From assembly GCA_017473435.1 (NCBI GenBank), contig JAFULG010000002.1, forward strand, positions 1-42,663: a DNA stretch of 42,663 nt, read 5' to 3'. The notes beneath the pieces are model-generated. The model did no database searches, was not told where the DNA came from, and saw only the letters and a program-made list of their open reading frames with translations. This DNA is from Clostridia bacterium. Lineage in GTDB: Bacteria > Bacillota > Clostridia > Oscillospirales > Acutalibacteraceae. Positions 1,995 through 11,465 of the stretch are shown piece after piece. The first letter of the stretch is position 1. Each line of letters begins with the position of its first letter. The position numbers were made by a program, and so were the translations under genes.

Positions 1995-2678
1995 TCAATC
2001 ACAATAAATCTGATACGCTGAATAACTTACCCTTCTCGCTTCATCGTTGAAGACCGCAGAAAAGACCGTAAAGAATGCAGGTATCTCCGTTGAGTTCCAA
2101 CTTGCAGAAAAAATTATCTCTCCACCTTCACCTTGAGTCACTTCACCGTTTTTGGTGAGAGTATCCTTTTTGAGCTGCTCATACTCCGCCTCAGGCAGAC
2201 TCCAGCTTGCTTCAAACCTTCCGCTTCTGACACTATTATAATAGTATTTATATGTAACATCCTCCGCTTTCTCGGGAATCTCCTTCGGCATCAACTTTTC
2301 AAGCGTCTCATAATTCTCTTCAAACTTACCGTCAAGAACAAGATAATCGTCCGGGTTTATCGTTTCGGAATATAGCGGATATATGCCGGGTTCTATAGAG
2401 TTAAAGAAATAAGTTGTCACAAGCGTATAACAAAAACTCATCAACAAGCCCATAATCAAAAACACCGAAGTAAAAACACGGAGCTTCTTTCTTTTCTCCG
2501 TTGAAGCTAGAGAAAAAACAAGACCCCAAAACGAAACAGTCATAAATACAGGCACAAGCCACCCATAATTATACAAATCAAGAGTAGGAAACTTAAGCTG
2601 TGACCTCATAAAGAAGAACAAGCCGTATACCAAGGCTATCCACATTACCGATAGCACTATATTAGTTTTTCGTTTCAT
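1995..2678 (-). CDS. Multi-pass membrane protein of unknown function
   Basis: A 227-aa protein. The start is the ATG at 2678 (MKRKTN), seven bases after GGGGGAG. The longer reading frame upstream overlaps the promoter at 2713-2741 and is rejected. Three hydrophobic stretches lie in the N-terminal half: about 6-26, 41-62 and 70-95. They are followed by a charged, probably extracellular domain of about 130 residues with no recognised motif. It is a single gene with its own promoter, then a B-type repeat and a terminator downstream. The family is not recognised. Confidence 0.75.
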   Translation of the reverse strand: MKRKTNIVLSVMWIALVYGLFFFMRSQLKFPTLDLYNYGWLVPVFMTVSFWGLVFSLASTEKRKKLRVFTSVFLIMGLLMSFCYTLVTTYFFNSIEPGIYPLYSETINPDDYLVLDGKFEENYETLEKLMPKEIPEKAEDVTYKYYYNSVRSGRFEASWSLPEAEYEQLKKDTLTKNGEVTQGEGGEIIFSASWNSTEIPAFFTVFSAVFNDEARRVSYSAYQIYCD

Positions 2679-2712
2679 AGTTTGCTCCCCCTGTTTCTTG
2701 TTTGTTAATTCG

Positions 2713-2741
2713 ATTATACTACCTCTCTCCTGAAAAATCAA
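2713..2741 (-). promoter_or_regulatory. Promoter of the 227-aa membrane protein
   Basis: On the minus strand TTGATT (2736-2741), 17-base spacer, TATAAT (2713-2718). It decides the start codon, because the longer frame would have to be translated from upstream of this promoter. Confidence 0.7.
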
Positions 2742-2752
2742 GTGTAAATTCA

Positions 2753-2789
2753 AAAGACCTTACAGCTCATTCAAAACTGTAAGGTCTTT
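2753..2789 (-). terminator. Intrinsic terminator of the SCP2/transketolase operon
   Basis: A 13-bp perfect stem AAAGACCTTACAG with its complement, the same stem as at 1863-1896. It lies about 100 bp beyond the last gene of the operon, after an A-type repeat. Confidence 0.7.
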
Positions 2790-2804
2790 ATTTGTTTGTT
2801 CTAT

Positions 2805-2855
2805 GACCTCGCCGGTCGGGCGTTCTTTCTTGTAAGAAAGAACCAAAGAACTTTT
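2805..2855 (-). repeat. Two-hairpin 3'-UTR repeat, family A, copy 1
   Basis: Minus-strand order: AAGTTCTTTGG, stem GTTCTTTCTT/AAGAAAGAAC, then GACC-GGCGA-GGTC. It lies downstream of the stop at 2891 in the same orientation as the gene. Five such copies are in the window, and both stems covary between them. Confidence 0.75.
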
Positions 2856-2890
2856 CGTTTTTTTATACTATATATAATAGTATAGGATTT

Positions 2891-3694
2891 TTATTTTGCA
2901 AGAGCACCAATCTCAAGCATAAATCCACCAATCTGTGCACCGAACTCAGGACCGCCATCCATAACAAGGCGACCTGCCTTTGTAGCCTCAAGCATATCAT
3001 CAATGCTCATAAGGATACCGAGTGCGCTGTCAAGGTTGTTGAAGCGAAGTGTAAAGAAAGGCATTGCTCTCTTGTATTCACCACGACCTGCTCTTGACTT
3101 ACCGGCCTTGATTCTGATGAAGGCTGAAACCTGAGGATAGTTGTCAACTGCAAAAGCATAAACACGGTCGGGGCTCTTTGTTGTCCAATCCTTGATTTCG
3201 GGATGTCCCATCTTGTTAAGCTGGCTGATACCGCTTGAAAGAAGATAGAAGTAGCACTTTACAAGAAGTTCCTTTGTCTCTTCATCCTTCGGGGGCTCTG
3301 TAGCACCGAGAAGGTCAGCCATCTTAAGAAGTACCATTACGAAGGAAACAAGTGTTCCTGCATATTTAAGACCCTTAATCTTGGGAATACCGCCGAGTGA
3401 AATGTTACCCTTGAAGAAATCGTTGAGTGCTTCAACGCTCTTGAATTCAAGCTCAATGTGGGGATCCTCTGTAAGGCAGGTGTGAACAAGCCATTCACCG
3501 CTGTTTACAACAAAGTGCATACCAACCTTGCCGCCCTCTACATCGGGATCAAGGCAGCTTACCTGGATAACTGCATGAGCATTTTCAAACTTCTTCTTAA
3601 GGGAGGGAACATCGTTTGCAATAACCTTTACAAGCGGCAAAGCTGCATTGAGAAAGATTTTGTTTGAATATAAGGCTTCTTTAGTATGAGCCAT
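2891..3694 (-). CDS. SCP2-like lipid-binding protein, last gene of the transketolase/aminotransferase operon
   Basis: A 267-aa soluble protein with no signal peptide or clear membrane segment. Two halves look alike in outline. The middle (VEALNDFFKGNISLGG, then a hydrophobic helix LVSFVMVLLKMADLLG) and the C-terminus (LDSALGILMSIDDMLEATKAG followed by RLVMDGGPEFG) each resemble the terminal 'ligand-lid' part of sterol carrier protein 2 domains. The family call rests on pattern memory only. It resembles the first gene of the same operon (6985-7743), for example in the block just before a conserved LLGATE / LRATEED segment. It starts 24 bp after the transketolase C-subunit stop, with GGAGG upstream. 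SCP2 domains bind lipids or other hydrophobic ligands, so a hydrophobic substrate for this operon is inferred. Confidence 0.6.
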   Translation of the reverse strand: MAHTKEALYSNKIFLNAALPLVKVIANDVPSLKKKFENAHAVIQVSCLDPDVEGGKVGMHFVVNSGEWLVHTCLTEDPHIELEFKSVEALNDFFKGNISLGGIPKIKGLKYAGTLVSFVMVLLKMADLLGATEPPKDEETKELLVKCYFYLLSSGISQLNKMGHPEIKDWTTKSPDRVYAFAVDNYPQVSAFIRIKAGKSRAGRGEYKRAMPFFTLRFNNLDSALGILMSIDDMLEATKAGRLVMDGGPEFGAQIGGFMLEIGALAK

Positions 3695-3718
3695 ATCGTT
3701 TGCCTCCTTGTAATAATA

Positions 3719-4726
3719 TTAGAACTCGTCGTCCCAGTTATCGTCTTCTTCAAAGTCTGCGTTCATTGTTTCACGAACAGCAGCGATGATACCGTTAGCG
3801 TCGATACCTGCGTCGGACATAATATCCTCGTGAAGACCGATCATAGCAAAGCCCTTATGACCGAGCATCTTGAATGCACAGCCCTTACCGTACTGAGCCA
3901 TAACCTCTGCAACAGCTGAGCCTAAACCGCCTGTAACAAGGTGGTCTTCAACTGTAACAATTCTTCTTGTATCGGAAATAGCCTTCTGAATAGCCTCAAC
4001 GTCGATGGGGCTGATTGTATGCATATTAAGAACGCGAACTGAAAGTCCGTCTGAATTCTTGAGGAACTTTGCAGCCTCACGAGCCTGGAATACGCATGAG
4101 CCGCAAGCGATAACTGTGATATCTGTACCCTCGTGAACCTCAACAGCCTTACCAACCTCAAAGCCGTAATCCTGGTTCTCATAAAGAACACGGTCAAAGC
4201 CACGGTTGATACGGATGTAATAGGGACCAAAGTTTTCGTAAGCTGCGTTAACAGCGTTAGCTGTTTCAAAGCCGTCAGCGGGAACGATAACTGTAAGGTT
4301 GGGCATTGCTCTTGTGATTGCAAGGTCAGTAATAGCATGGTGAGTTGAACCTGCCTGACCGAAGGATGTACCTGAATGTGTAGCAATAATCTTTGCGTTT
4401 ACATTCTGATAGCAGATGTCTGTGTGAAGCTGGTCGCAAGCACGCATTGATGTGAAAGCAGAGAAGCCTGAAAGGAAGGGAATCATACCTGCTCTTGCCA
4501 TACCTGCAGCAACACCGAACATATCCTGTTCAGCGATACCAACGTTGATAACTCTTTCGGGGCAAACCTTAAGAACGTCGCCGAGCTTTGTTGATTTTGC
4601 AAGGTCAGCTGTAATAGCAACAACCTTGGGGTCCTTTAAAATAATGTCAGCAAGTGCCTTACCGTAAATTTCAGCTGTGGAAAGTGAGGTCTGGTCAACT
4701 GCTGTATAAACAAATCCGCCTGCCAT
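3719..4726 (-). CDS. Transketolase, C-terminal subunit (pyrimidine-binding and C domains)
   Basis: A 335-aa protein. The ATG at 4726 (MAGGF) lies two bases after the stop of the N subunit, with GGAGGG in the end of that gene. It carries the transketolase pyrimidine domain: the catalytic glutamate is E66 in NVGIAEQDM, followed by FLSGFSAF, a Q-H-rich THSGTSFGQAGSTHH segment and PNLTVIVPAD. The C-terminal domain includes ITVIACGS and VEDHLVTGGLG. The last dozen residues are strongly acidic (DFEEDDNWDDEF). Split transketolases of this kind occur in archaea, in apiose and sulfoquinovose routes, and in the Rif15A/B kanosamine pathway, so sequence alone does not fix the substrate. It pairs with the gene at 4729-5607 to form one ThDP enzyme. 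The neighbours suggest an unusual acceptor. Confidence 0.9.
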   Translation of the reverse strand: MAGGFVYTAVDQTSLSTAEIYGKALADIILKDPKVVAITADLAKSTKLGDVLKVCPERVINVGIAEQDMFGVAAGMARAGMIPFLSGFSAFTSMRACDQLHTDICYQNVNAKIIATHSGTSFGQAGSTHHAITDLAITRAMPNLTVIVPADGFETANAVNAAYENFGPYYIRINRGFDRVLYENQDYGFEVGKAVEVHEGTDITVIACGSCVFQAREAAKFLKNSDGLSVRVLNMHTISPIDVEAIQKAISDTRRIVTVEDHLVTGGLGSAVAEVMAQYGKGCAFKMLGHKGFAMIGLHEDIMSDAGIDANGIIAAVRETMNADFEEDDNWDDEF

Positions 4727-4728
4727 AA

Positions 4729-5607
4729 TTATTTGCCCTCCTTTTCTGCACGTGCACAACGAGCCTTATAATCTTCGTCAAGCTCTTTATTGAACTTCTC
4801 GAAGAGAGCGTCGTCGATAGCACCGTAGTGCCATGTGTAGTCGCCTTCGATTGACTTGATACCTGCGCCCTTCTTTGTATCCATAAGAATACATGTGGGA
4901 GCACACTTTTCCTTTGAACGCTCGATAGCTACATCGATAGCATTGCAAAGCTCGCCGATATTGTTACCGTCAACAACAATTGTGTTGAAGCCGAAGGCTG
5001 TCATCTTGTCCGCAAGAGGCTCAAGCTTCTTGATGTCTTCGGTGTTACCGTCGATCATGTTGTGGTTTCTGTCAATGAATACGATGCAGTTTGAAAGCTG
5101 ATAGTGGTTGATTGTCATAAAGCCTTCCCAGCATGAGCCTTCACCGAGCTCACCGTCACCGGTAACTACATATGTAAGGAAGTCCTTACCCTGAAGTCTT
5201 GCTGCAAGTGCTGTACCTGCTGCGATTGAGGGGCCGTGACCGAGTGAGCCTGTTGATGCGTCAACACCTACAACCTTGTTTGAGTCAAGGTGCATACCCA
5301 TCTTTGAGCCTGAAAGGTTAAATGACTTAAGCATTTCAACGTCGTTGAAGCCCTTATCGCAGAGCACGGGAGCATAAGCGATAGCTGCGTGACCCTTTGA
5401 AAGGATGAAGCGGTCTCTGTCTTCCCACTTGGGATCCTCAACCTTGATGTTAAGGTACTTGTGATAGAGAACGGTAAGAAGATCCATAACGCTCATACCG
5501 CCGCCGAAATGTCCGCTGCCTGCCCAAACAGTTGTCTGAACTGTAAGCTTACGAAGCTCGAAAGCCTTCTTTTCAAGGGCAAGCCATTCCTGTTTTGAAA
5601 GTGGCAT
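4729..5607 (-). CDS. Transketolase, N-terminal (ThDP-binding) subunit
   Basis: A 292-aa protein. The ATG at 5607 (MPLSKQ) follows GGAGG by seven bases, and the longer frame lacks support. Visible transketolase motifs are G30-SGHFGGGMS, FILSKGHAA near 67-75, STGSLGHG at 118-125, and the ThDP/Mg motif G150-D-G ... N181 (GDGELGEG to DRNHNMIDG). The C-terminus is charged. The next gene starts two bases after this stop, so translation of the two subunits is coupled. In the pentose phosphate pathway the enzyme moves two-carbon ketol units. Here an SCP2-like pair and an aminotransferase replace the usual sugar-catabolism neighbours, which hints at a biosynthetic role. Confidence 0.9.
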   Translation of the reverse strand: MPLSKQEWLALEKKAFELRKLTVQTTVWAGSGHFGGGMSVMDLLTVLYHKYLNIKVEDPKWEDRDRFILSKGHAAIAYAPVLCDKGFNDVEMLKSFNLSGSKMGMHLDSNKVVGVDASTGSLGHGPSIAAGTALAARLQGKDFLTYVVTGDGELGEGSCWEGFMTINHYQLSNCIVFIDRNHNMIDGNTEDIKKLEPLADKMTAFGFNTIVVDGNNIGELCNAIDVAIERSKEKCAPTCILMDTKKGAGIKSIEGDYTWHYGAIDDALFEKFNKELDEDYKARCARAEKEGK

Positions 5608-5646
5608 AATGTTTTCCTCCAATTTATTATAATATTTTCTCTCCAT

Positions 5647-5672
5647 AAGGCAACGCCCGTAAGCGTCGCCTT
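5647..5672 (-). other. Intra-operon hairpin between aminotransferase and transketolase
   Basis: AAGGCAACGC (5647-5656) pairs with GCGTCGCCTT (5663-5672) with one G-U pair and a 6-base loop. It lies in the only long gap (99 bp) of the operon, and no U-tract follows. It may set RNA stability or the ratio of expression of the two halves. Confidence 0.5.
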
Positions 5673-5706
5673 TGATGGGGGGATTTTACAGTTTAATCCG
5701 TCGCTT

Positions 5707-6972
5707 TTATCTGAAAAGCTCGGGGTGATTCTTTGCAACGATGCCGAAAGCTTCTTCTGCAACGTCAATTGTGTGCTTGATGTCCTTGTCGGAAAGAGCA
5801 GCATTGATGAAGTGGTTATGGTGAGAAGCAAGGAAGATACCTCTTGCAACCATTTCAGCAATCCATTCCTGATGGAGAAGCATGCTGTCGTCGTTAGCAA
5901 TTCTTAAGTAGAAGAGAGCTGCGGGACCTGAAGCGATGAGGTTGAAGCCGTGCTCTGCGCCGGCCTTAACAAGACCGTTACAAAGCTTTTCGCCCTTTTC
6001 CTTAAACATCTTGGGAACGTCAAGTTCCTTCATCTTGTTGATGTTTGTAATACAAGCTGCAAAGGGAACAGCTGAAAGCCAGTATGAGCCTGTATAAGCA
6101 AGTGAGCTCATTGCATTCTTAAGGAAGTCCTTACCGCAGATAGCTGACATATTGTAGCCGTTTGCAAGAGCCTTACAGAAGCAGATAAGGTCAGCCTCAA
6201 AGCCGAAGTAATGGTCAGAGCCGGCAAGGTCAAGACGGAAGCCTGCACGAACGTCGTCAATAATAAGAACGATATCGTTCTTTGTGCAGATTTCTCTTAC
6301 CTTCTGCCAGAAGCCTTTTTCGGGGAATGCGTTGTCATGGAAGTTACCGTGATCATAAGGCTGAGCGATTATACATGCAATCTGGTTCTTGTTCTCTTCG
6401 ATTGTCTTTTCAAGAAGAGGAATATCGTTCCAGGGAAGCATAATGTTATTAGCAACATCCTCAGGAAGAACACCGGGATAGTCAATTTTCTGACACCAGG
6501 GTGAAACGCCGTGATAGTAGCCATGGAACATGATAACCTTCTTGCGGTGTGTATATGCTCTTGCGCACATGATAGCGCCCTGTGTTGCGTCGTTACCGTT
6601 CTTTGCAAAGAAAGCCCAGTCAGCTGTGTTAACTGTGTCAACAAGAAGCTCTGCGCATTCAAGCATTACCTTACCGGGCTGTGTTGTGCAGTTACCAAGC
6701 GCGATCTGCTTCATAGCAGCAGCATCAACATCGGGATCGCAGTAACCGAGTACGTTGGGGCCGTATGCGCACATATAGTCAATATATTTGTTACCGTCAA
6801 CGTCCCATACATATGTACCCTTTGCCTTTTCAGCAAACATAGGCCATTTTGCAACAGGGATGAACTGACCCTCTGCAGGGCCGAGGTGACCGTAAATACC
6901 TGAAGGTATTACCTTTGTTGCTCTGTTGAAGAGCTCTGTGCTTTTATCGTGTTTGTATACGGGAAAACTCAT
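5707..6972 (-). CDS. Class III PLP aminotransferase, glutamate-1-semialdehyde aminomutase-like
   Basis: A 421-aa protein of the usual length for the family. It follows the glutamate-1-semialdehyde 2,1-aminomutase fold: STELFNRATKVIPSGIYGH at the N-terminus, DVDGNKYIDYMCAYGP, the FHGYYHG segment (about 149-155), the PLP-ring aspartate in IIDDVRAGFR (D239), and the Schiff-base lysine K267 in LICFCKALANGY. The usual NSGTEA phosphate-binding segment is altered to KNGNDATQGA (124-133), so it is not a textbook GSAM. No other tetrapyrrole gene is nearby. It lies 12 bp after the first SCP2-like gene and upstream of the split transketolase. A role in aminating a ketose or ketol made by the transketolase is inferred. 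A weak alternative is a stray heme-pathway enzyme. Confidence 0.85.
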   Translation of the reverse strand: MSFPVYKHDKSTELFNRATKVIPSGIYGHLGPAEGQFIPVAKWPMFAEKAKGTYVWDVDGNKYIDYMCAYGPNVLGYCDPDVDAAAMKQIALGNCTTQPGKVMLECAELLVDTVNTADWAFFAKNGNDATQGAIMCARAYTHRKKVIMFHGYYHGVSPWCQKIDYPGVLPEDVANNIMLPWNDIPLLEKTIEENKNQIACIIAQPYDHGNFHDNAFPEKGFWQKVREICTKNDIVLIIDDVRAGFRLDLAGSDHYFGFEADLICFCKALANGYNMSAICGKDFLKNAMSSLAYTGSYWLSAVPFAACITNINKMKELDVPKMFKEKGEKLCNGLVKAGAEHGFNLIASGPAALFYLRIANDDSMLLHQEWIAEMVARGIFLASHHNHFINAALSDKDIKHTIDVAEEAFGIVAKNHPELFR

Positions 6973-6984
6973 TGTAATACCTCC

Positions 6985-7743
6985 TTATGCAAGATAGAGT
7001 GCAACTCTGTCAAGAATTCTGTTAACGTTGTCGATCATATTGATCTGACCGTGCATTGCGATTGTACCTTCACCGATACAAGCGATGGAGTTAACCTTAC
7101 CGTCAAAGAGATCTCTTGCAAGACGGATGTTGTCAAATTCCATCTGTGAGCGATATGCTTCGGGCTTCTGCTTGATTGTTACCATGTGGTGATCCTTAAC
7201 GCGGATTGTAGCACCAACGCAATCCTTAATTGAAACATCGATGATACCGTCAGGAATGAATGAAGCACTGAATTTACCGATTTCGTCATTGTTACCGATC
7301 TGAGAAAGAGCAACAGTGATTACATAGAACATAAGCTTTGTGCTGATTTCAAAGAACTTATCATCCTTAAGATCTTCCTCTGTAGCACGGAGATACTTTG
7401 AAAGTAAATCAGTAAGAGGGATGAACTTTTTGAGAAGGAACATAATCTTTGAAAAGCCCTTTGAAGGAAGAGCTGAACCTGTTCCGTCAACCATAGCATT
7501 GAACTTCTCGGGAGTTGAGAAGGGGAGAAGAACATCACAGTTCTGTGTGCCCTGTTCCATTCTGCATCTGCCGTTTTTGAAGAAGAGAGTAGCGCTGGGG
7601 CCGCCCTTTACTTCAAGACCGATAGAAACAGGCTTTTTGGTCTTTACGAGCTCACTTGCTTTTTCATCAAGCTCACAAAGGTTTTCGATTGCACCGAGAA
7701 CAGCATACATATTTATGTATGCCAGGGTTTTTGCATCTGTCAT
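6985..7743 (-). CDS. SCP2-like lipid-binding protein, first gene of the transketolase/aminotransferase operon
   Basis: A 252-aa cytosolic protein. The start is the ATG at 7743 (MTDAKT) with AGGAGG seven bases upstream. The C-terminal 40 residues, LARDLFDGKVNSIACIGEG followed by TIAMHGQINMI, match the typical end of SCP2/sterol-carrier domains, where a 'G.l...G...l.G' turn precedes the last helix. The N-terminal half has a second, weaker copy (FSTPEKFNAMVDGTGSALPS and a hydrophobic helix). It is the promoter-proximal gene. The operator dyad at 7765-7790 lies in its leader. With the paralogue at 2891-3694 it brackets the operon. The ligand is unknown. Confidence 0.65.
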   Translation of the reverse strand: MTDAKTLAYINMYAVLGAIENLCELDEKASELVKTKKPVSIGLEVKGGPSATLFFKNGRCRMEQGTQNCDVLLPFSTPEKFNAMVDGTGSALPSKGFSKIMFLLKKFIPLTDLLSKYLRATEEDLKDDKFFEISTKLMFYVITVALSQIGNNDEIGKFSASFIPDGIIDVSIKDCVGATIRVKDHHMVTIKQKPEAYRSQMEFDNIRLARDLFDGKVNSIACIGEGTIAMHGQINMIDNVNRILDRVALYLA

Positions 7744-7764
7744 AAAATAGCCTCCTTTGGTTAG

Positions 7765-7790
7765 ATACAACGGTAATTATACCATTGTAT
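7765..7790 (-). promoter_or_regulatory. Palindromic operator in the leader of the SCP2/transketolase operon
   Basis: A 26-bp dyad with half-sites ATACAACGGTA and TACCATTGTAT around a 4-base AT centre, with one internal mismatch. It lies between the promoter at 7806-7834 and the ribosome site, where a repressor would block transcription. No regulator gene is adjacent. Confidence 0.55.
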
Positions 7791-7805
7791 GATTTAGACA
7801 AAGTT

Positions 7806-7834
7806 ATTTTAACAAATATTCCTCATTCTGTCAA
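7806..7834 (-). promoter_or_regulatory. Promoter of the SCP2/aminotransferase/transketolase operon
   Basis: On the minus strand TTGACA (7829-7834), 17-base spacer, TAAAAT (7806-7811), 62 bp before the first ATG. Confidence 0.75.
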
Positions 7835-7907
7835 TTCTCTATGTGCATTTATAACATTTTTTTTAAATTTATTTTCAAAAAAATGGCAAATCTATATTGA
7901 AACAAGT

Positions 7908-7945
7908 AAAAAACGCCGCCCTGATGATAAAAACCTCAAGGCGGC
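7908..7945 (-). terminator. Intrinsic terminator of the 8-10 kb operon
   Basis: On the minus strand GCCGCC (complement of 7940-7945) pairs with GGCGGC (complement of 7915-7920), with an inner loop, followed by GTTTTTTAC. It lies 17 bp after the stop at 7962. Confidence 0.75.
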
Positions 7946-7961
7946 TTACTGATTTTTAATT

Positions 7962-8486
7962 TTACATTGAGCAGGCGAGCACTATTGTTGAAATAACAGC
8001 AACGATAAATGTTACTCCGTACCTTTCAAGATAAGCACCGACATAGAGCATTGCAACAGCAGGTGCATAAAGAATTTTCTGAAGGATATTTCCGTGCTTA
8101 TAGACCTTTTCCGTCATATTCAATGCGTCCTCAATAAGGCTGTAGCTGTTAACGTAAAGCGAAACAGCGAACCAATATGAAACCGCCGTAGTTGCAATAA
8201 GCAGGGGATTGGTAGTTTCGTAAACAAAAAGGAAAATTATGGGCAATACTGCAAGGAAGAAAGCTCCGAGAGCATTAAAGAATGCGGGCACAAAGCAGAT
8301 AGCAAAAGCAGACGAAGCCGTAGGCATAAGCTCATGGTCAATATGACTGCACATTTCATCTTTTCTTAAGTATCTGTTATCCTCAACCGGTACCTTGCAT
8401 ATGCGGCAGACAATCTGCTCCCAGAAGCATCTTACATAAGCGCCGGGAAAGGTGAGATATTTTGTAATATAGTAAAAAGCCGTCAT
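7962..8486 (-). CDS. Multi-pass membrane protein of unknown function
   Basis: A 174-aa protein. The ATG at 8486 overlaps the TGA stop of the preceding gene by four bases (ATGA), so translation is coupled. A short cytosolic N-terminus carries two cysteines (IVCRICKVPVED). It is followed by about four hydrophobic segments: residues 60-88, 92-112, 134-150 and 155-172. The sequence matches no named family I know. The partner at 8483-9928 has a zinc ribbon and a single membrane span, so the two probably act together at the membrane. Confidence 0.75.
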   Translation of the reverse strand: MTAFYYITKYLTFPGAYVRCFWEQIVCRICKVPVEDNRYLRKDEMCSHIDHELMPTASSAFAICFVPAFFNALGAFFLAVLPIIFLFVYETTNPLLIATTAVSYWFAVSLYVNSYSLIEDALNMTEKVYKHGNILQKILYAPAVAMLYVGAYLERYGVTFIVAVISTIVLACSM

Positions 8487-9928
8487 GCGATGTCACCTCT
8501 CATATCTGCAATAGCCTCCTCAAGGGAAACCGTTCCGTTTTTATATCCTTCAACGAGCTCACTCACTTCAAAACCGGAGCTTCCGAGGGTCTGGACCATA
8601 TTGTTGTAAATATCTGTATTGCCGCAATAAAGGGCGCAGAGAGCATAGAGATTGCAGTTTGAAACATTGTAATAGTTTGTGCTCATATACTCTGTCATTG
8701 TATCAAGAGCGAGGGCTCCTTCTCCCTTGATAAGATAGCCGATTACAAGGGCAGGGTAGTATGATGTATCACCGCTGTATGCCTTGCTTGCAGCTGTTTC
8801 GCAAAGCTTGATAATTGCATCACCGTCGGGAACCTCAAGGTAACGGTAATAAAGAGCCATTGAGGCATATGCCTTCATATCCTCACTGTTGTTTTTACAC
8901 ATTTTTTCAAAGTATTCCTTTGCAAGCTCCTCGTTGCCCATTTTACCTGCAACCTCACAGATTGAGGGAAGATAAATCCAGTTGGCAAAACCGTTCTTAT
9001 CGTTTTCCTCAATACCCCTGAGCACCTCAAGCTGCTTTTCAAGCTCAGCACCTGAAAGTCTTAAAAGCTCATACTTATAATACTCGATGATAACTTCGCT
9101 GTATCTGATGCCTTTTTCTTCGTCGACATAGTTTTCCTTTGCCTTGTCAAGCTCCGCAATAAGCTTATCGCAATCAAATTCCTTACCTGAAAAAGCATCC
9201 TCAACAATAGTCTGAACTGCATCTCTTGTCGCAAGGAAGGTATCAACAAATTCCACAGCACGCTTGTACTTTTTATTCCAGGGGAGCTTAAGCTGATTCT
9301 CTGTATAATACTTTTCAACAGTTTCCTTTGCGTTATTCACATATCCCGTACGGATAAAACCGTCAATAAGAAGATCAACTGCCTTTTGAGAATCAACATC
9401 CTTACCTGAAACAAAGCTGTAAAGGCTCTGTACCGTTGACATCATTTTACCCTCTCCTGCAGCAGCCTGTGCTTCAAGAACAACTACTGCATTTTCCATG
9501 CTGTCCAAACCGAAAAACACGGAAAGACCGAAAACAACAATCATAAGAAGCATTGAAATAACGCCACTTATTCTCAACGGATAGCGCTTCATAAGCTCAC
9601 GGCAGCTTTCACAGTAGGGATAATCCTCACCGTAGCTGAGACTGACAGGCTGTTCTGCACAACACTCACAAAGAGGAAGCTCTGCCTTTTCCTCCGGATG
9701 CTCTTCATCCGCATCTTCAATTTCTTCAAGCTCCTGAATAAGCTCACCTTCCGCCTGCTCCTCACCGGCATTGTCAAGTGCCTCCTGGAACATATCGCGG
9801 ATTCCCTCAAGCTCCTTTACAAGAGCATCCTCTTCGCTTTCCGCTGAAATTTCCTCAGTAATCTCTTCAGATACATCAGCAAATTCCTCATCGGGAGTTT
9901 CAAGCTCTCTCTTTTCAAATTCGTCCAA
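8483..9928 (-). CDS. Acidic zinc-ribbon, single-span protein with a helical-repeat C-terminal domain
   Basis: A 481-aa protein starting at a TTG codon (9928), seven bases after GAGGAGG. Residues 1-85 are strongly acidic and probably disordered. A CECC...CESC zinc-ribbon-like motif (about 88-111) follows, then one membrane segment (about 121-142, ISMLLMIVVFGLSVFFGL). The remaining about 330 residues are predicted mostly helical with TPR-like spacing (for example NEELAKEYFEKMCKNNSED then MKAYASMALYYRYLEVPDG). The zinc ribbon would be cytosolic and the repeat domain outside, or the reverse. Function is unknown. It is the first gene of a two-gene operon with its own promoter. Confidence 0.75.
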   Translation of the reverse strand: MDEFEKRELETPDEEFADVSEEITEEISAESEEDALVKELEGIRDMFQEALDNAGEEQAEGELIQELEEIEDADEEHPEEKAELPLCECCAEQPVSLSYGEDYPYCESCRELMKRYPLRISGVISMLLMIVVFGLSVFFGLDSMENAVVVLEAQAAAGEGKMMSTVQSLYSFVSGKDVDSQKAVDLLIDGFIRTGYVNNAKETVEKYYTENQLKLPWNKKYKRAVEFVDTFLATRDAVQTIVEDAFSGKEFDCDKLIAELDKAKENYVDEEKGIRYSEVIIEYYKYELLRLSGAELEKQLEVLRGIEENDKNGFANWIYLPSICEVAGKMGNEELAKEYFEKMCKNNSEDMKAYASMALYYRYLEVPDGDAIIKLCETAASKAYSGDTSYYPALVIGYLIKGEGALALDTMTEYMSTNYYNVSNCNLYALCALYCGNTDIYNNMVQTLGSSGFEVSELVEGYKNGTVSLEEAIADMRGDIA

Positions 9929-9981
9929 AATATTACCTCCTCAATTTGTAGGTTGAAAGTAAACACTTATATGTAAATGCT

Positions 9982-10010
9982 ATTTTATCATTGTTTTTTG
10001 TAAAAATCAA
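9982..10010 (-). promoter_or_regulatory. Promoter of the zinc-ribbon/membrane protein operon
   Basis: On the minus strand TTGATT (10005-10010), 17-base spacer, TAAAAT (9982-9987). It is divergent from the queH promoter. Confidence 0.7.
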
Positions 10011-10064
10011 CCGTAAAACATAACAGATAATAAAAACAAAAATTTAAACTTACTTAAAATATCA

Positions 10065-10093
10065 TTGAGAAAATCCATAGAATATGCTAAAAT
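10065..10093 (+). promoter_or_regulatory. queH promoter
   Basis: TTGAGA (10065-10070), 17-base spacer, TAAAAT (10088-10093), 29 bp before the ATG at 10123. Confidence 0.65.
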
Positions 10094-10122
10094 AGCTGTA
10101 ACGAAGAAAGGTGACGGTTAAA

Positions 10123-10749
10123 ATGGAAAATCTTCAAAAAGAACTGGAAAAAATTATAGAACAAAATAAAAAAGAGGGGACAAAGCCCTCTTTGCTTCTT
10201 CATGCCTGCTGCGCACCCTGCAGCAGCTACTGCATTGAATATCTGCACAAATATTTTGATATTACCCTTTTCTTCTATAATCCCAACATTTTTCCCGCCG
10301 AAGAATACGCTCACCGCGTAAACGAGCTGAAAAGGCTGGTAACTGAAATGGGACTTTCAATTCACGTCCTCGAAGCAGAGAACGACACCGAAAGCTTTTA
10401 TGCCCTGGCAAAAGGCAGAGAGAACATACGAGAGGGCGGCGCAAGGTGCTTTGACTGTTACCGTTTAAGACTGAAAAAAACCGCTCAGCTGGCAAGGGAA
10501 AAAGGCTTTGATTATTTCACAACCACGCTTTCAATAAGTCCTCTGAAAAACTCAAAGAAGCTTCGCGAAATCGGCCTTGAGTTAGAAGGGGAGTACGGAG
10601 TTAAAAACCTTCCCTCGGATTTCAAGAAAAAGGAAGGCTACAAAAGAAGCATTGAGCTTTCAAAAAAGTACAACCTTTACAGACAGAACTACTGCGGATG
10701 TGAGTATTCGGTGAGAGTTCCGGAGCAGACAGGCAACAGCAAGAAATAA
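10123..10749 (+). CDS. queH: Epoxyqueuosine reductase QueH
   Basis: A 208-aa protein of the DUF208/QueH family, which carries out the last step of queuosine tRNA modification (epoxyqueuosine to queuosine). It is the alternative to QueG. Metal and iron-sulfur cysteines are visible in LHACCAPCSSYC (about 26-37), GGARCFDCYRLRL and NYCGCEYS near the end. The ATG at 10123 is chosen over GTG at 10111 because AAAGGTG sits at the right distance upstream of the ATG, and the GTG is part of that ribosome site. It is a single gene with its own promoter, and a strong 20-bp terminator lies downstream. No preQ1 synthesis genes are nearby, as often seen for this enzyme. Confidence 0.9.
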   Translation: MENLQKELEKIIEQNKKEGTKPSLLLHACCAPCSSYCIEYLHKYFDITLFFYNPNIFPAEEYAHRVNELKRLVTEMGLSIHVLEAENDTESFYALAKGRENIREGGARCFDCYRLRLKKTAQLAREKGFDYFTTTLSISPLKNSKKLREIGLELEGEYGVKNLPSDFKKKEGYKRSIELSKKYNLYRQNYCGCEYSVRVPEQTGNSKK

Positions 10750-10846
10750 TCTATAAAAAGCTCATACCTGAACCCGGGAACAATCATATTAAAATTCCGG
10801 AAAACCCTTTAAAGAATATAAAAACTGAATATTTCCCCGAAAGCCT

Positions 10847-10890
10847 AAAAGAAGGCTGTAAAAAACTTCCGTTTTTTACAGCCTTCTTTT
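10847..10890. terminator. Bidirectional terminator between queH and rubrerythrin
   Basis: A perfect 20-bp stem (10847-10866 with 10871-10890) with loop TTCC and T-runs on both strands. It serves queH on the plus strand and the rubrerythrin gene on the minus strand. Confidence 0.85.
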
Positions 10891-10931
10891 TACTGCTTTA
10901 TTATTTTACGTATCCGTCAGGGTACTGTAAC

Positions 10932-11465
10932 TTAATAGTTCTCTTTTCTTACCTCGAAATAGCTCTGAGGATGTGCGCAAACGGGACAGATTTCGGGAGC
11001 CTTTTTGCCCATTACAAGGTGTCCGCAGTTGCGGCATTCCCACATGGTTTCCTCGCTTTTTTCAAATACTGCCTTCATCTCAACGTTGTTGAGAAGTGCA
11101 CGGTATCTTTCCTCGTGGCTCTTTTCAATTTCTGCTACCATTCTGAACTTTGCAGCAAGGTCATGGAATCCTTCTTCCTCAGCGTCCTTTGCAAAGCCTG
11201 CATACATATCTGTCCATTCGTAGTTTTCACCTGCGGCAGCTGCTGCAAGGTTAGCAGCTGTGTCACCAAGCTCACCGAGAGCCTTGAACCACATTTTTGC
11301 GTGTTCCTTTTCGTTGTTTGCGGTTGCTTCAAAAATTGCGGCAATCTGCTGATAGCCTTCCTTCTTAGCTACGGAAGCAAAGTAGGTGTACTTGTTTCTT
11401 GCCTGGGATTCACCTGCGAAAGCCTCCATAAGATTTTTTTCGGTTTTTGTGCCTTTAAGATTCAT
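10932..11465 (-). CDS. rbr: Rubrerythrin
   Basis: A 177-aa cytosolic non-heme iron protein. The ATG at 11465 ([13 protein letters not shown]) follows AGGAGG, and the longer frame runs through the promoter. The N-terminal ferritin-like four-helix domain carries the di-iron ligand segments [17 protein letters not shown] and [10 protein letters not shown]. The C-terminal rubredoxin-like domain has two Cys-x-x-Cys pairs: CRNC and CPVC. Rubrerythrins reduce hydrogen peroxide in anaerobes. It is a monocistronic unit with a consensus promoter and a shared terminator. The gene strongly supports an anaerobic host. Confidence 0.95.

Follow-up and report, generated by a model that had tools for sequence, protein, structure and literature searches.

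What is the function of an operon that combines an aminotransferase and a two-chain transketolase (TK) with two SCP2-like proteins? Such an operon lies on the minus strand at positions 2891-7743 of a 42,663-nucleotide stretch of DNA, referred to here as the window, from a Clostridia bacterium of the family Acutalibacteraceae (assembly GCA_017473435.1, contig JAFULG010000002.1, positions 1 to 42,663). The genes are named here, in the order of transcription, S1, AT1, TN, TC and S2, with gaps of 12, 99, 2 and 24 bp. A first-pass annotation, made from the sequence alone, had described these five open reading frames as one operon and had suggested that the enzymes might build an amino-diol like a sphingoid base. 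The structural part of this description was confirmed: gene order, strand and gaps are as described, and one strong sigma-70-like promoter and an imperfect dyad are found upstream. The block is real and conserved, but "one operon" is too narrow a term for it, since in our reading it is one half of a regulon. As to its function, our interpretation, which we rate as about evenly balanced between right and wrong, is that an inducible regulon breaks down long-chain 2-amino-1,3-diols and that this operon is its first half. Sphingoid bases such as sphinganine or sphingosine would be the most likely substrates. Loci, genomes and contigs are referred to below by L, G and C numbers.

The five genes form a conserved accessory block

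Relatives of AT1 were collected from a set of GTDB contigs. The best 80 loci of 569 relatives, a selection that leans to close kin, were analyzed, and the block genes in them were counted by tblastn. All five genes were found in this order in 75 of the 80 loci (including L059, where S2 is covered to 79%), and the block genes that were present followed this order in 80 of 80. The gene order is conserved far beyond chance. Among the incomplete loci, L037, L039, L048 and L049 reach the end of a contig. In L013 (around 10001-11260), S1-AT1 stands alone with no TN-TC-S2 in about 7 kb beyond; we read this locus as a relative whose transketolase half was lost or moved.

The block was also found in pieces. 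In G305 it is present in two places, with TN-TC-S2 in L099 and S1 with AT1 alone in L100; in G558 (L102), TN-TC-S2 is found without S1-AT1 at that place, and in G697 (L108) the order is TN-TC-S2-S1-AT1. In each of these arrangements S1 stays with AT1 and S2 with TN-TC, so that both enzymes retain an SCP2-like partner of their own.

When S2 was used as the marker of the block in a profile search, it was detected in 45 of 200 genomes drawn from the same family, in 3 of 147 genomes of the order and in 5 of 398 of the phylum (the window genome is counted in each). The block is an accessory trait and not a housekeeping one. Many of the records carry titles that refer to the gut of a herbivore (goat, sheep, deer, buffalo, cattle, horse and yak).

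The aminotransferase is a relative of FumI

AT1 (5707-6972, minus strand; 421 amino acids) belongs to the class III aminotransferases, which use pyridoxal phosphate (PLP), with a Pfam score of 144.6 bits. It had been annotated as being of the type of glutamate-1-semialdehyde aminomutase (GSAM). The class III assignment holds, but AT1 is nearer to FumI of Sphingopyxis sp. MTA144 (6hbs, 291 bits), its nearest solved relative, than to the best GSAM (172 bits), and with 215.8 bits it did not reach the equivalog cut-off of the GSAM model hemL (527.3 bits). AT1 and FumI (6hbs/6hbv), which is also of class III, are identical in 148 of 400 positions (37.0%). They have the motifs DDVRAGFR (8/8), DYMCAYGPN(V/L)LGY (12/13) and TGSxWxSAVPxAA (10/13) in common. 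The likely catalytic lysine of AT1, K267 in FCKALANG, is invariant in 35 of 35 sequences.

FumI acts on hydrolysed fumonisin B1, a C20 2-amino-3,5,10,14,15-pentol, whose 2-amino group it passes to pyruvate (PMC2933618). The first two FumI enzymes were reported to be 65% identical, and three later ones to share 62 to 74% identity with them (PMC9858248). Since the known FumI enzymes are that much alike and AT1 has only 37% identity, AT1 is a cousin of FumI; its substrate cannot be read from the identity and is a prediction here. FumI is not known to be accompanied by TK or SCP2 genes.

The split transketolase has lost three charged active-site residues

TN (4729-5607, minus strand; 292 amino acids), the N-terminal half of the split TK that binds thiamine diphosphate, matched Transketolase_N (PF00456) with 135 bits, and TC (3719-4726, minus strand; 335 amino acids), the C-terminal half, matched Transket_pyr (PF02779) with 134 bits and Transketolase_C (PF02780) with 87.5 bits, all over the cut-off. 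The nearest solved relatives are the chains of the split TK of Carboxydothermus hydrogenoformans (6yak for TN, 203 bits; 6yaj for TC, 242 bits), which has the same two-chain split. Active-site columns were compared in 95 TN and 94 TC sequences from blocks, with redundancy kept. Escherichia coli residue numbers were assigned by motif matching to 6yaj and 6yak.

The catalytic histidines are present in four columns of TN (95/95) and in the H461 column of TC (94/94), and the columns of S385 and R520 are kept in 94 of 94. Three charged residues, which we take to be the equivalents of R91, R358 and D469, have been lost. R91 is replaced by Asn in 95 of 95 TN sequences, all of which also read GSLGHG instead of GSLGQG. 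D469, the Asp of GEDG, is Ala in 93 and Ser in 1 of 94 TC sequences, and R358, the Arg of ATR, is lost in 92 of 94 (A in 86, S in 2, T in 2 and G in 2) and kept in 2. The C. hydrogenoformans enzyme, by contrast, keeps all three. So do the second split TK of the window genome (L120, the housekeeping copy), the TK of L223 and the solved enzymes (6yaj and 4kxu for D469 and R358). All three of the other TKs from the loci, like 6yak, have R91 and the Gln of GSLGQG, and the full-length TK in L100 keeps R91.

D469 of E. coli TK is joined to R91 by a salt bridge (PMC5073344), and thus both partners of this bridge are gone together in the block TK. In engineered variants of E. coli TK (D469T and S385Y/D469T/R520Q), non-polar aldehydes gain access to the site through a replacement of the Asp of GEDG (PMC5073344, PMC10787763), and D469T is called propanal accepting (PMC10787763). 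Those variants are man-made, whereas the loss of Asp in the block TK is natural, complete in 94 sequences and accompanied by the loss of the R91 partner, and the block TK probably works in the reverse direction. H100L was introduced into TK to enable the use of pyruvate as the donor (PMC10787763). In the block TK the equivalent of H100 is kept, and therefore we expect that the hydroxyl group stays on the two-carbon unit and that the donor is a hydroxymethyl ketol.

In the window genome, TC-like sequences were found in three places: in the block, in a canonical split TK on C58 and on C86. The C86 sequence, a 615-amino-acid frame, was taken for DXS.

The terminal proteins S1 and S2 are related to each other

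S1 (6985-7743, minus strand; 252 amino acids) is the partner of the aminotransferase and S2 (2891-3694, minus strand; 267 amino acids) that of the TK. In the S1 family, 22 of 35 members matched PF02036 at E values of 1 or below (best, 3.8e-5), and in the S2 family, 4 of 34 (best, 0.0089). The profiles of S1 and S2 are homologous to each other with 95.4% (E value, 1.8e-8). In hhalign, the two halves of S1 matched each other with 91.4% and, with 70.8 and 79.9%, an alignment built from only seven SCP2 proteins; six unrelated control comparisons (four of profiles with this alignment and two of other pairs) gave 0.1 to 1.5%. The halves of S2 gave 5.8 and 0.4% with the seven-protein alignment and 0.3% with each other; its C-terminal half matched that of S1 with 87.5%. 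Judged by these profiles, S1 is fairly called a protein of two tandem SCP2-like halves, and S2 would be SCP2-like only through S1.

A second module co-occurs with the block

If the block makes or breaks an amino-diol, which genes go with it? No flanking gene is conserved. If aminotransferases (20 loci) are set aside, the cluster most often found nearby was a FucA-like class II aldolase, ALD, in 15 of 99 loci. There, ALD is found two genes upstream of the block and in the opposite direction, with a second class III aminotransferase, AT2, in between. AT2 and ALD, together with an FGGY kinase (KIN) and a TetR regulator, make up a second module. In 11 loci (L142, L205-L212, L215 and L216), AT2-ALD is arranged back to back with TetR and KIN; L213, L214 and L217 have AT2-ALD and KIN with no recognised TetR. 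L109 has TetR-ALD-AT2 in divergent orientation to the block itself, and in L103, L104, L113, L114 and L115 a TetR gene follows S2. In the window genome, AT2-ALD is located on C18 (L204) and TetR-KIN on C69 (L138).

ALD in L142, a double aldolase II protein (PF00596, 197 bits), has L-fuculose-phosphate aldolase as its best NCBIfam match (150.6 bits; cut-off, 264). The L142 kinase matched FGGY_N/C, and KIN is XylB-like with 303 to 304 bits (NCBIfam cut-off, 380). In the window genome the closest kin of TetR is FadR of the Bacillus type (49.7 bits; cut-off, 200); for the TetR of L142, ScbR comes first and FadR fourth. Since all NCBIfam scores of the second module are below the cut-offs, these are kinships and not names.

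Co-occurrence was determined in the 200 family genomes by counting S2, ALD (threshold, 1e-60) and KIN (1e-120). S2 was found in 45 genomes, ALD in 46 and KIN in 49; S2 and ALD were found together in 42, S2 and KIN in 43 and all three in 42 (Fisher P of about 1e-34, a value that ignores kinship). S2 occurs without ALD or KIN in G621 and G665 and with KIN but not ALD in G595. ALD and KIN are present without S2 in G582, G693 and G705, ALD only in G544 and KIN only in G572, G625 and G716. These exceptions suggest two separable branches.

Several other genes were seen at second-module loci. GPH-type sugar symporters are encoded near the kinase in L213 and, by reading of the sequence, in L142 and L216. 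In L208 (6108-6575), L209 (8257-8727) and L215 (6227-6706), the kinase is followed by a small protein whose Cx5R(S) motif resembles that of low-molecular-weight phosphatases; NCBIfam gave no name for the L208 protein. After the kinase of L214, the stretch 5017-10470 reads as old-yellow-enzyme-like, SDR-like and FAD-reductase-like genes, in this one genome. The ALD gene at 7349-8557 of C82 in G660 has one in-frame TAG. In G544, which lacks the block marker S2, an ALD-like double aldolase gene is located near a canonical split TK (L223, 2046-5849). Directly upstream of TetR-KIN of the window genome is what reads as a GH3-like glycosidase gene (L138, 2546-5053), and seven of 99 loci have another GH3-like cluster close to the block.

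Promoter and operator sites

Relatives have an operator motif, TGAGYG-N2/6-CRCTCA, which was searched within 250 bp upstream of genes with at most 1 mismatch in 12. It was found upstream of AT2 in 7 of 30 cases, of S1 in 14 of 96 and of TetR in 7 of 17, counted with redundancy kept. None of 811 control genes had it, and among 424 further genes of the pathway there was 1. AT2 and TetR have a common intergenic region with the motif in six loci. A 160-bp scan upstream of S1 gave the same 14 sites, 12 of which are 17 to 25 nt before the start. In the window genome, AT2-ALD is preceded by GGTGAGTGACAACTCACC. Eight block genomes had 24 exact sites (0 to 7 per genome; 3 with the pattern reversed). 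Two of the 20 off-pathway sites (L139 and L143) were viewed for extra regulon members, and no pathway gene was found there. We infer that TetR binds this motif and responds to a ligand of the pathway. The block and the second module are probably under one switch.

The promoter of the operon in the window (7806-7834, minus strand) is read as TTGACA-17-TAAAAT, a consensus match with the -35 hexamer at 7829-7834 and the -10 hexamer at 7806-7811. It is sigma-70-like, agrees in 11 of 12 positions and has a TG before the second hexamer; it was the top of 12 promoter-like matches in the region, where shuffled sequence averages 7.8. Between promoter and start codon, a 24-bp imperfect dyad, TACAACGGTAATTATACCATTGTA, was read from the sequence at 7766-7789 (no strand). 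It ends 22 nt from the S1 start codon. The dyad has no match to the TGAGYG-CRCTCA motif and occupies the same place as the operator of the relatives with another sequence; by this position, it may be an operator.

An inverted repeat, GGCAACGC...GCGTCGCC, lies in the 99-bp gap between AT1 and TN (5608-5706), as does a promoter-like site at 5653-5626. Among the loci this gap is a loose joint of 17 to 573 bp (by our own start calls), and since its length varies in this way, the TK half may be regulated separately. No RNA family was found in 2500-8200 of the window.

Ceramidase-like genes and other candidates for a lipid-related role

If sphingoid bases are the substrate, are genes that release them found in the same genomes? 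Matches to neutral ceramidase (PF04734) were found in 40 of the 200 family genomes (27 over the cut-off) and in 0 of 14 control genomes. The matches, counted without correction for kinship or genome size, were in 27 of 45 block genomes and 13 of 155 others; over the cut-off, the figures were 20 of 45 and 7 of 155, and by genus, 20 of 30 and 9 of 105. The match in G575 is a 967-amino-acid protein (L248; 212 and 83 bits) with an N terminus that looks secreted, and the window genome has a weak match (33.9 bits) in a 611-amino-acid protein (L249).

An EEP-family gene directly follows KIN in 5 of the 200 genomes, from three genera, all of them block positive. It was considered as a sphingomyelinase, but this reading was not supported: the best PDB match, TDP2, is not significant (E value, 0.028). 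The aldehyde dehydrogenase gene that adjoins the block in L105, the only such case among 99 loci, was rejected as a fatty aldehyde dehydrogenase; the model it fits best is benzaldehyde dehydrogenase (457 bits; cut-off, 550). No PLP-dependent sphingosine 1-phosphate lyase was found among the five block genes, to which this search was confined.

A proposed pathway for sphingoid-base breakdown

How could these enzymes work together? In the first branch, S1 would present the base to AT1, which would move the amine from C-2 to an oxo acid (pyruvate in the case of FumI) and leave the ketol R-CHOH-CO-CH2OH. S2 would present this ketol to the modified split TK. Cleavage between C-2 and C-3 would then transfer the two-carbon unit to a sugar phosphate and release the fatty aldehyde R-CHO. 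In the second branch, encoded elsewhere in the genome, AT2 would deaminate 2-amino-1,3,4-triols of the phytosphingosine type to a ketose, KIN would phosphorylate the ketose at C-1 and the FucA-like ALD would split the ketose 1-phosphate to dihydroxyacetone phosphate (DHAP) and a fatty aldehyde. Keto-phytosphingosine would be (3R,4R), the configuration that is cleaved by FucA-type aldolases. Both branches would be repressed by the FadR-like TetR. A kinase before an aldolase is the order of breakdown, and FumI is a breakdown enzyme; therefore, we take the pathway to be catabolic and not biosynthetic.

The full proposal, which we put forward tentatively and as somewhat short of an even chance, is an undescribed anaerobic breakdown of sphingoid bases as if they were sugars: a transamination followed by TK for 1,3-diols or by kinase and FucA-like aldolase for 1,3,4-triols, with one SCP2-like carrier for each enzyme of the first branch, neither a sphingosine 1-phosphate lyase nor oxygen and the C2 and C3 units entering the sugar phosphate metabolism of Clostridia in herbivore guts. 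Substrate, direction and the carrier role of S1 and S2 are all presumed in this proposal. The chemistry put forward in the first-pass annotation, in which TK acts on a ketol bond beside a lipid-like chain, an aminotransferase interconverts ketone and amine at C-2 and SCP2 proteins carry the lipid, is thus retained: it is supported by the kinship with FumI, the loss of charged residues in TK and the separate SCP2-like partner of each enzyme in split blocks. Its direction is probably reversed. Synthesis of a sphingoid base without serine palmitoyltransferase is not supported, given the co-occurrence of the block with a kinase, a FucA-like aldolase and AT2, with which it has a common operator in relatives, and its association with ceramidase-like genes.

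A number of observations weigh against the proposal. The activities of AT1, AT2, TK, KIN and ALD are predicted from family membership; the family scores are below the NCBIfam equivalog cut-offs, and no model names a specificity. By the Cahn-Ingold-Prelog rules, natural TK donors are 3S and the ketol derived from sphinganine would be 3R, and thus the stereochemistry of TK would have to have changed. The description of both terminal proteins as SCP2-like is supported for S1 at the level of its family and for S2 through its relation to S1, but in the window S1 matched PF02036 below the Pfam cut-off (15.5 bits; cut-off, 21.3), S2 did not match it, and a PF02036 search of the window's own genome found nothing. 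No S1- or S2-like gene was found in the second-module loci; this and the missing aldehyde-handling gene are among the weakest points of the proposal. The operator motif is present before only 14 of 96 blocks and absent before the window's own block and its own TetR-KIN, and of the 24 exact sites only 4 are at the pathway by letters and place (the block of L006, L016 and G540 and AT2/TetR of G656). G575 apart, the PF04734 matches do not reach 55 bits; in 18 of the 45 block genomes there is no match, and lifestyle or genome size may explain part of the association with the block. No gene for handling the aldehyde is conserved at the loci; an aldehyde dehydrogenase adjoins the block in 1 of 99 (L105).

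Alternative explanations

The same steps could serve the breakdown of a water-soluble amino-polyol or amino-alditol, i.e., a 2-amino-1,3-diol with a sugar-like tail, with S1 and S2 as scaffolds and not as lipid carriers. We consider this unlikely, although KIN, ALD and TK belong to families that act mostly on sugars, sugar symporters of the GPH type are found near the kinase in some loci, second-module loci lack an S1/S2-like gene and the direct SCP2 match of S2 is weak. A lipid is favored over such a substrate by FumI as the nearest solved aminotransferase, by the charged residues lost from TK, by the SCP2-like nature of S1, by FadR as the nearest relative of the window genome's TetR and by the association with ceramidase. 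Run backwards, the same enzymes and chemistry would make a sphingoid-like amino-diol lipid without serine palmitoyltransferase, as TK would join a C2 ketol to a fatty aldehyde and AT1 would aminate the product. TK and aminotransferase reactions are reversible in principle, and laboratory TK-transaminase pairs do make 2-amino-1,3-diols. The link to a kinase, a FucA-like aldolase and a TetR follows the logic of breakdown, however, and FumI is catabolic. The spread of the block is also patchy (45/200, 3/147 and 5/398, as given above), and no biosynthetic partner is conserved beside it, with clusters other than aminotransferases in at most 15 of 99 loci; the neighbours are partly annotated, and a scattered acyl reductase is possible. 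Taken together, this makes synthesis an improbable function.

Amino-sugar biosynthesis of the Rif15A/B kind, for example of a precursor of a surface glycan or a secondary metabolite, is very improbable. A split TK with an aminotransferase is the Rif15 arrangement, and the SCP2 assignment of S2 is weak, but the one non-aminotransferase cluster that reaches 15 of 99 neighbouring loci is ALD, and it is KIN and ALD that co-occur with the block. A housekeeping role, with a TK of the pentose phosphate pathway and a GSAM of tetrapyrrole synthesis, is scarcely credible. TK and AT1 do belong to these enzyme groups at the level of the superfamily, but the marker was found in only 45 of 200 family genomes, AT1 is nearer to FumI and misses the hemL cut-off (215.8 against 527.3 bits), and a canonical split TK is encoded elsewhere (C58). 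Tetrapyrrole or ordinary pentose phosphate neighbours, which the first-pass annotation had named as evidence that would contradict it, were indeed not seen: the conserved partners show neither, and the genome has its separate canonical split TK.

Comparison with known pathways

Breakdown of sphingoid bases by the two modules would resemble the catabolism of the ketoses of L-fucose and L-rhamnose, in which a kinase and a class II aldolase yield DHAP and an aldehyde. The second module has an FGGY kinase, a FucA-like aldolase and one TetR side by side, and class II aldolase and FGGY kinase are thus found in one regulon. Beyond pathways of this type, the regulon contains two aminotransferases, a modified TK and SCP2-like proteins, and no isomerase is among the genes of the two modules. 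In Pseudomonas aeruginosa, metabolism of sphingoid bases by sphBCD and SphR is switched on by sphingosine (PMC11893366). That system is oxidative, with a periplasmic oxidoreductase, a cytochrome c and a predicted PLP aldolase, and no TK, kinase or SCP2 protein is named for it (PMC11893366). Its regulator, SphR, is an activator, whereas that of the present regulon would be a TetR.

The open-licence literature in PubMed Central was searched (subscription papers and preprints were outside its scope), and no description of the two-module pathway was found. If the proposal is true, gut Clostridia would be able, without a lyase or oxygen, to draw on sphingolipid backbones from the host mucosa and from plant food, and microbial sugar metabolism would be linked to signalling and antimicrobial lipids. 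In the laboratory, a transketolase and a transaminase are paired to make amino-diols; the pathway would also be an equivalent of this pair in nature and a source of ready-made enzymes. Even with another amino-polyol as the substrate, the two-module regulon would be a well-defined pathway for which the search of this literature found no description.

Other neighbouring genes

NAD(P) transhydrogenase-like genes with AlaDh_PNT domains adjoin the block or a split half of it in three genomes (L100, 4914-7841; L102, 3824-7419; L107, 13494-14654); by reading of the sequence, L100 and L102 have PntB-like neighbours. The L107 gene was considered as an alanine dehydrogenase that could recycle pyruvate and was rejected, since it is PntA-like (343 bits, against 190.5 for alanine dehydrogenase). 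Downstream of the block in the window, 544-1128 and 1162-1764 encode two similar small proteins in tandem, with an N-terminal hydrophobic stretch (MKKAVKI...).

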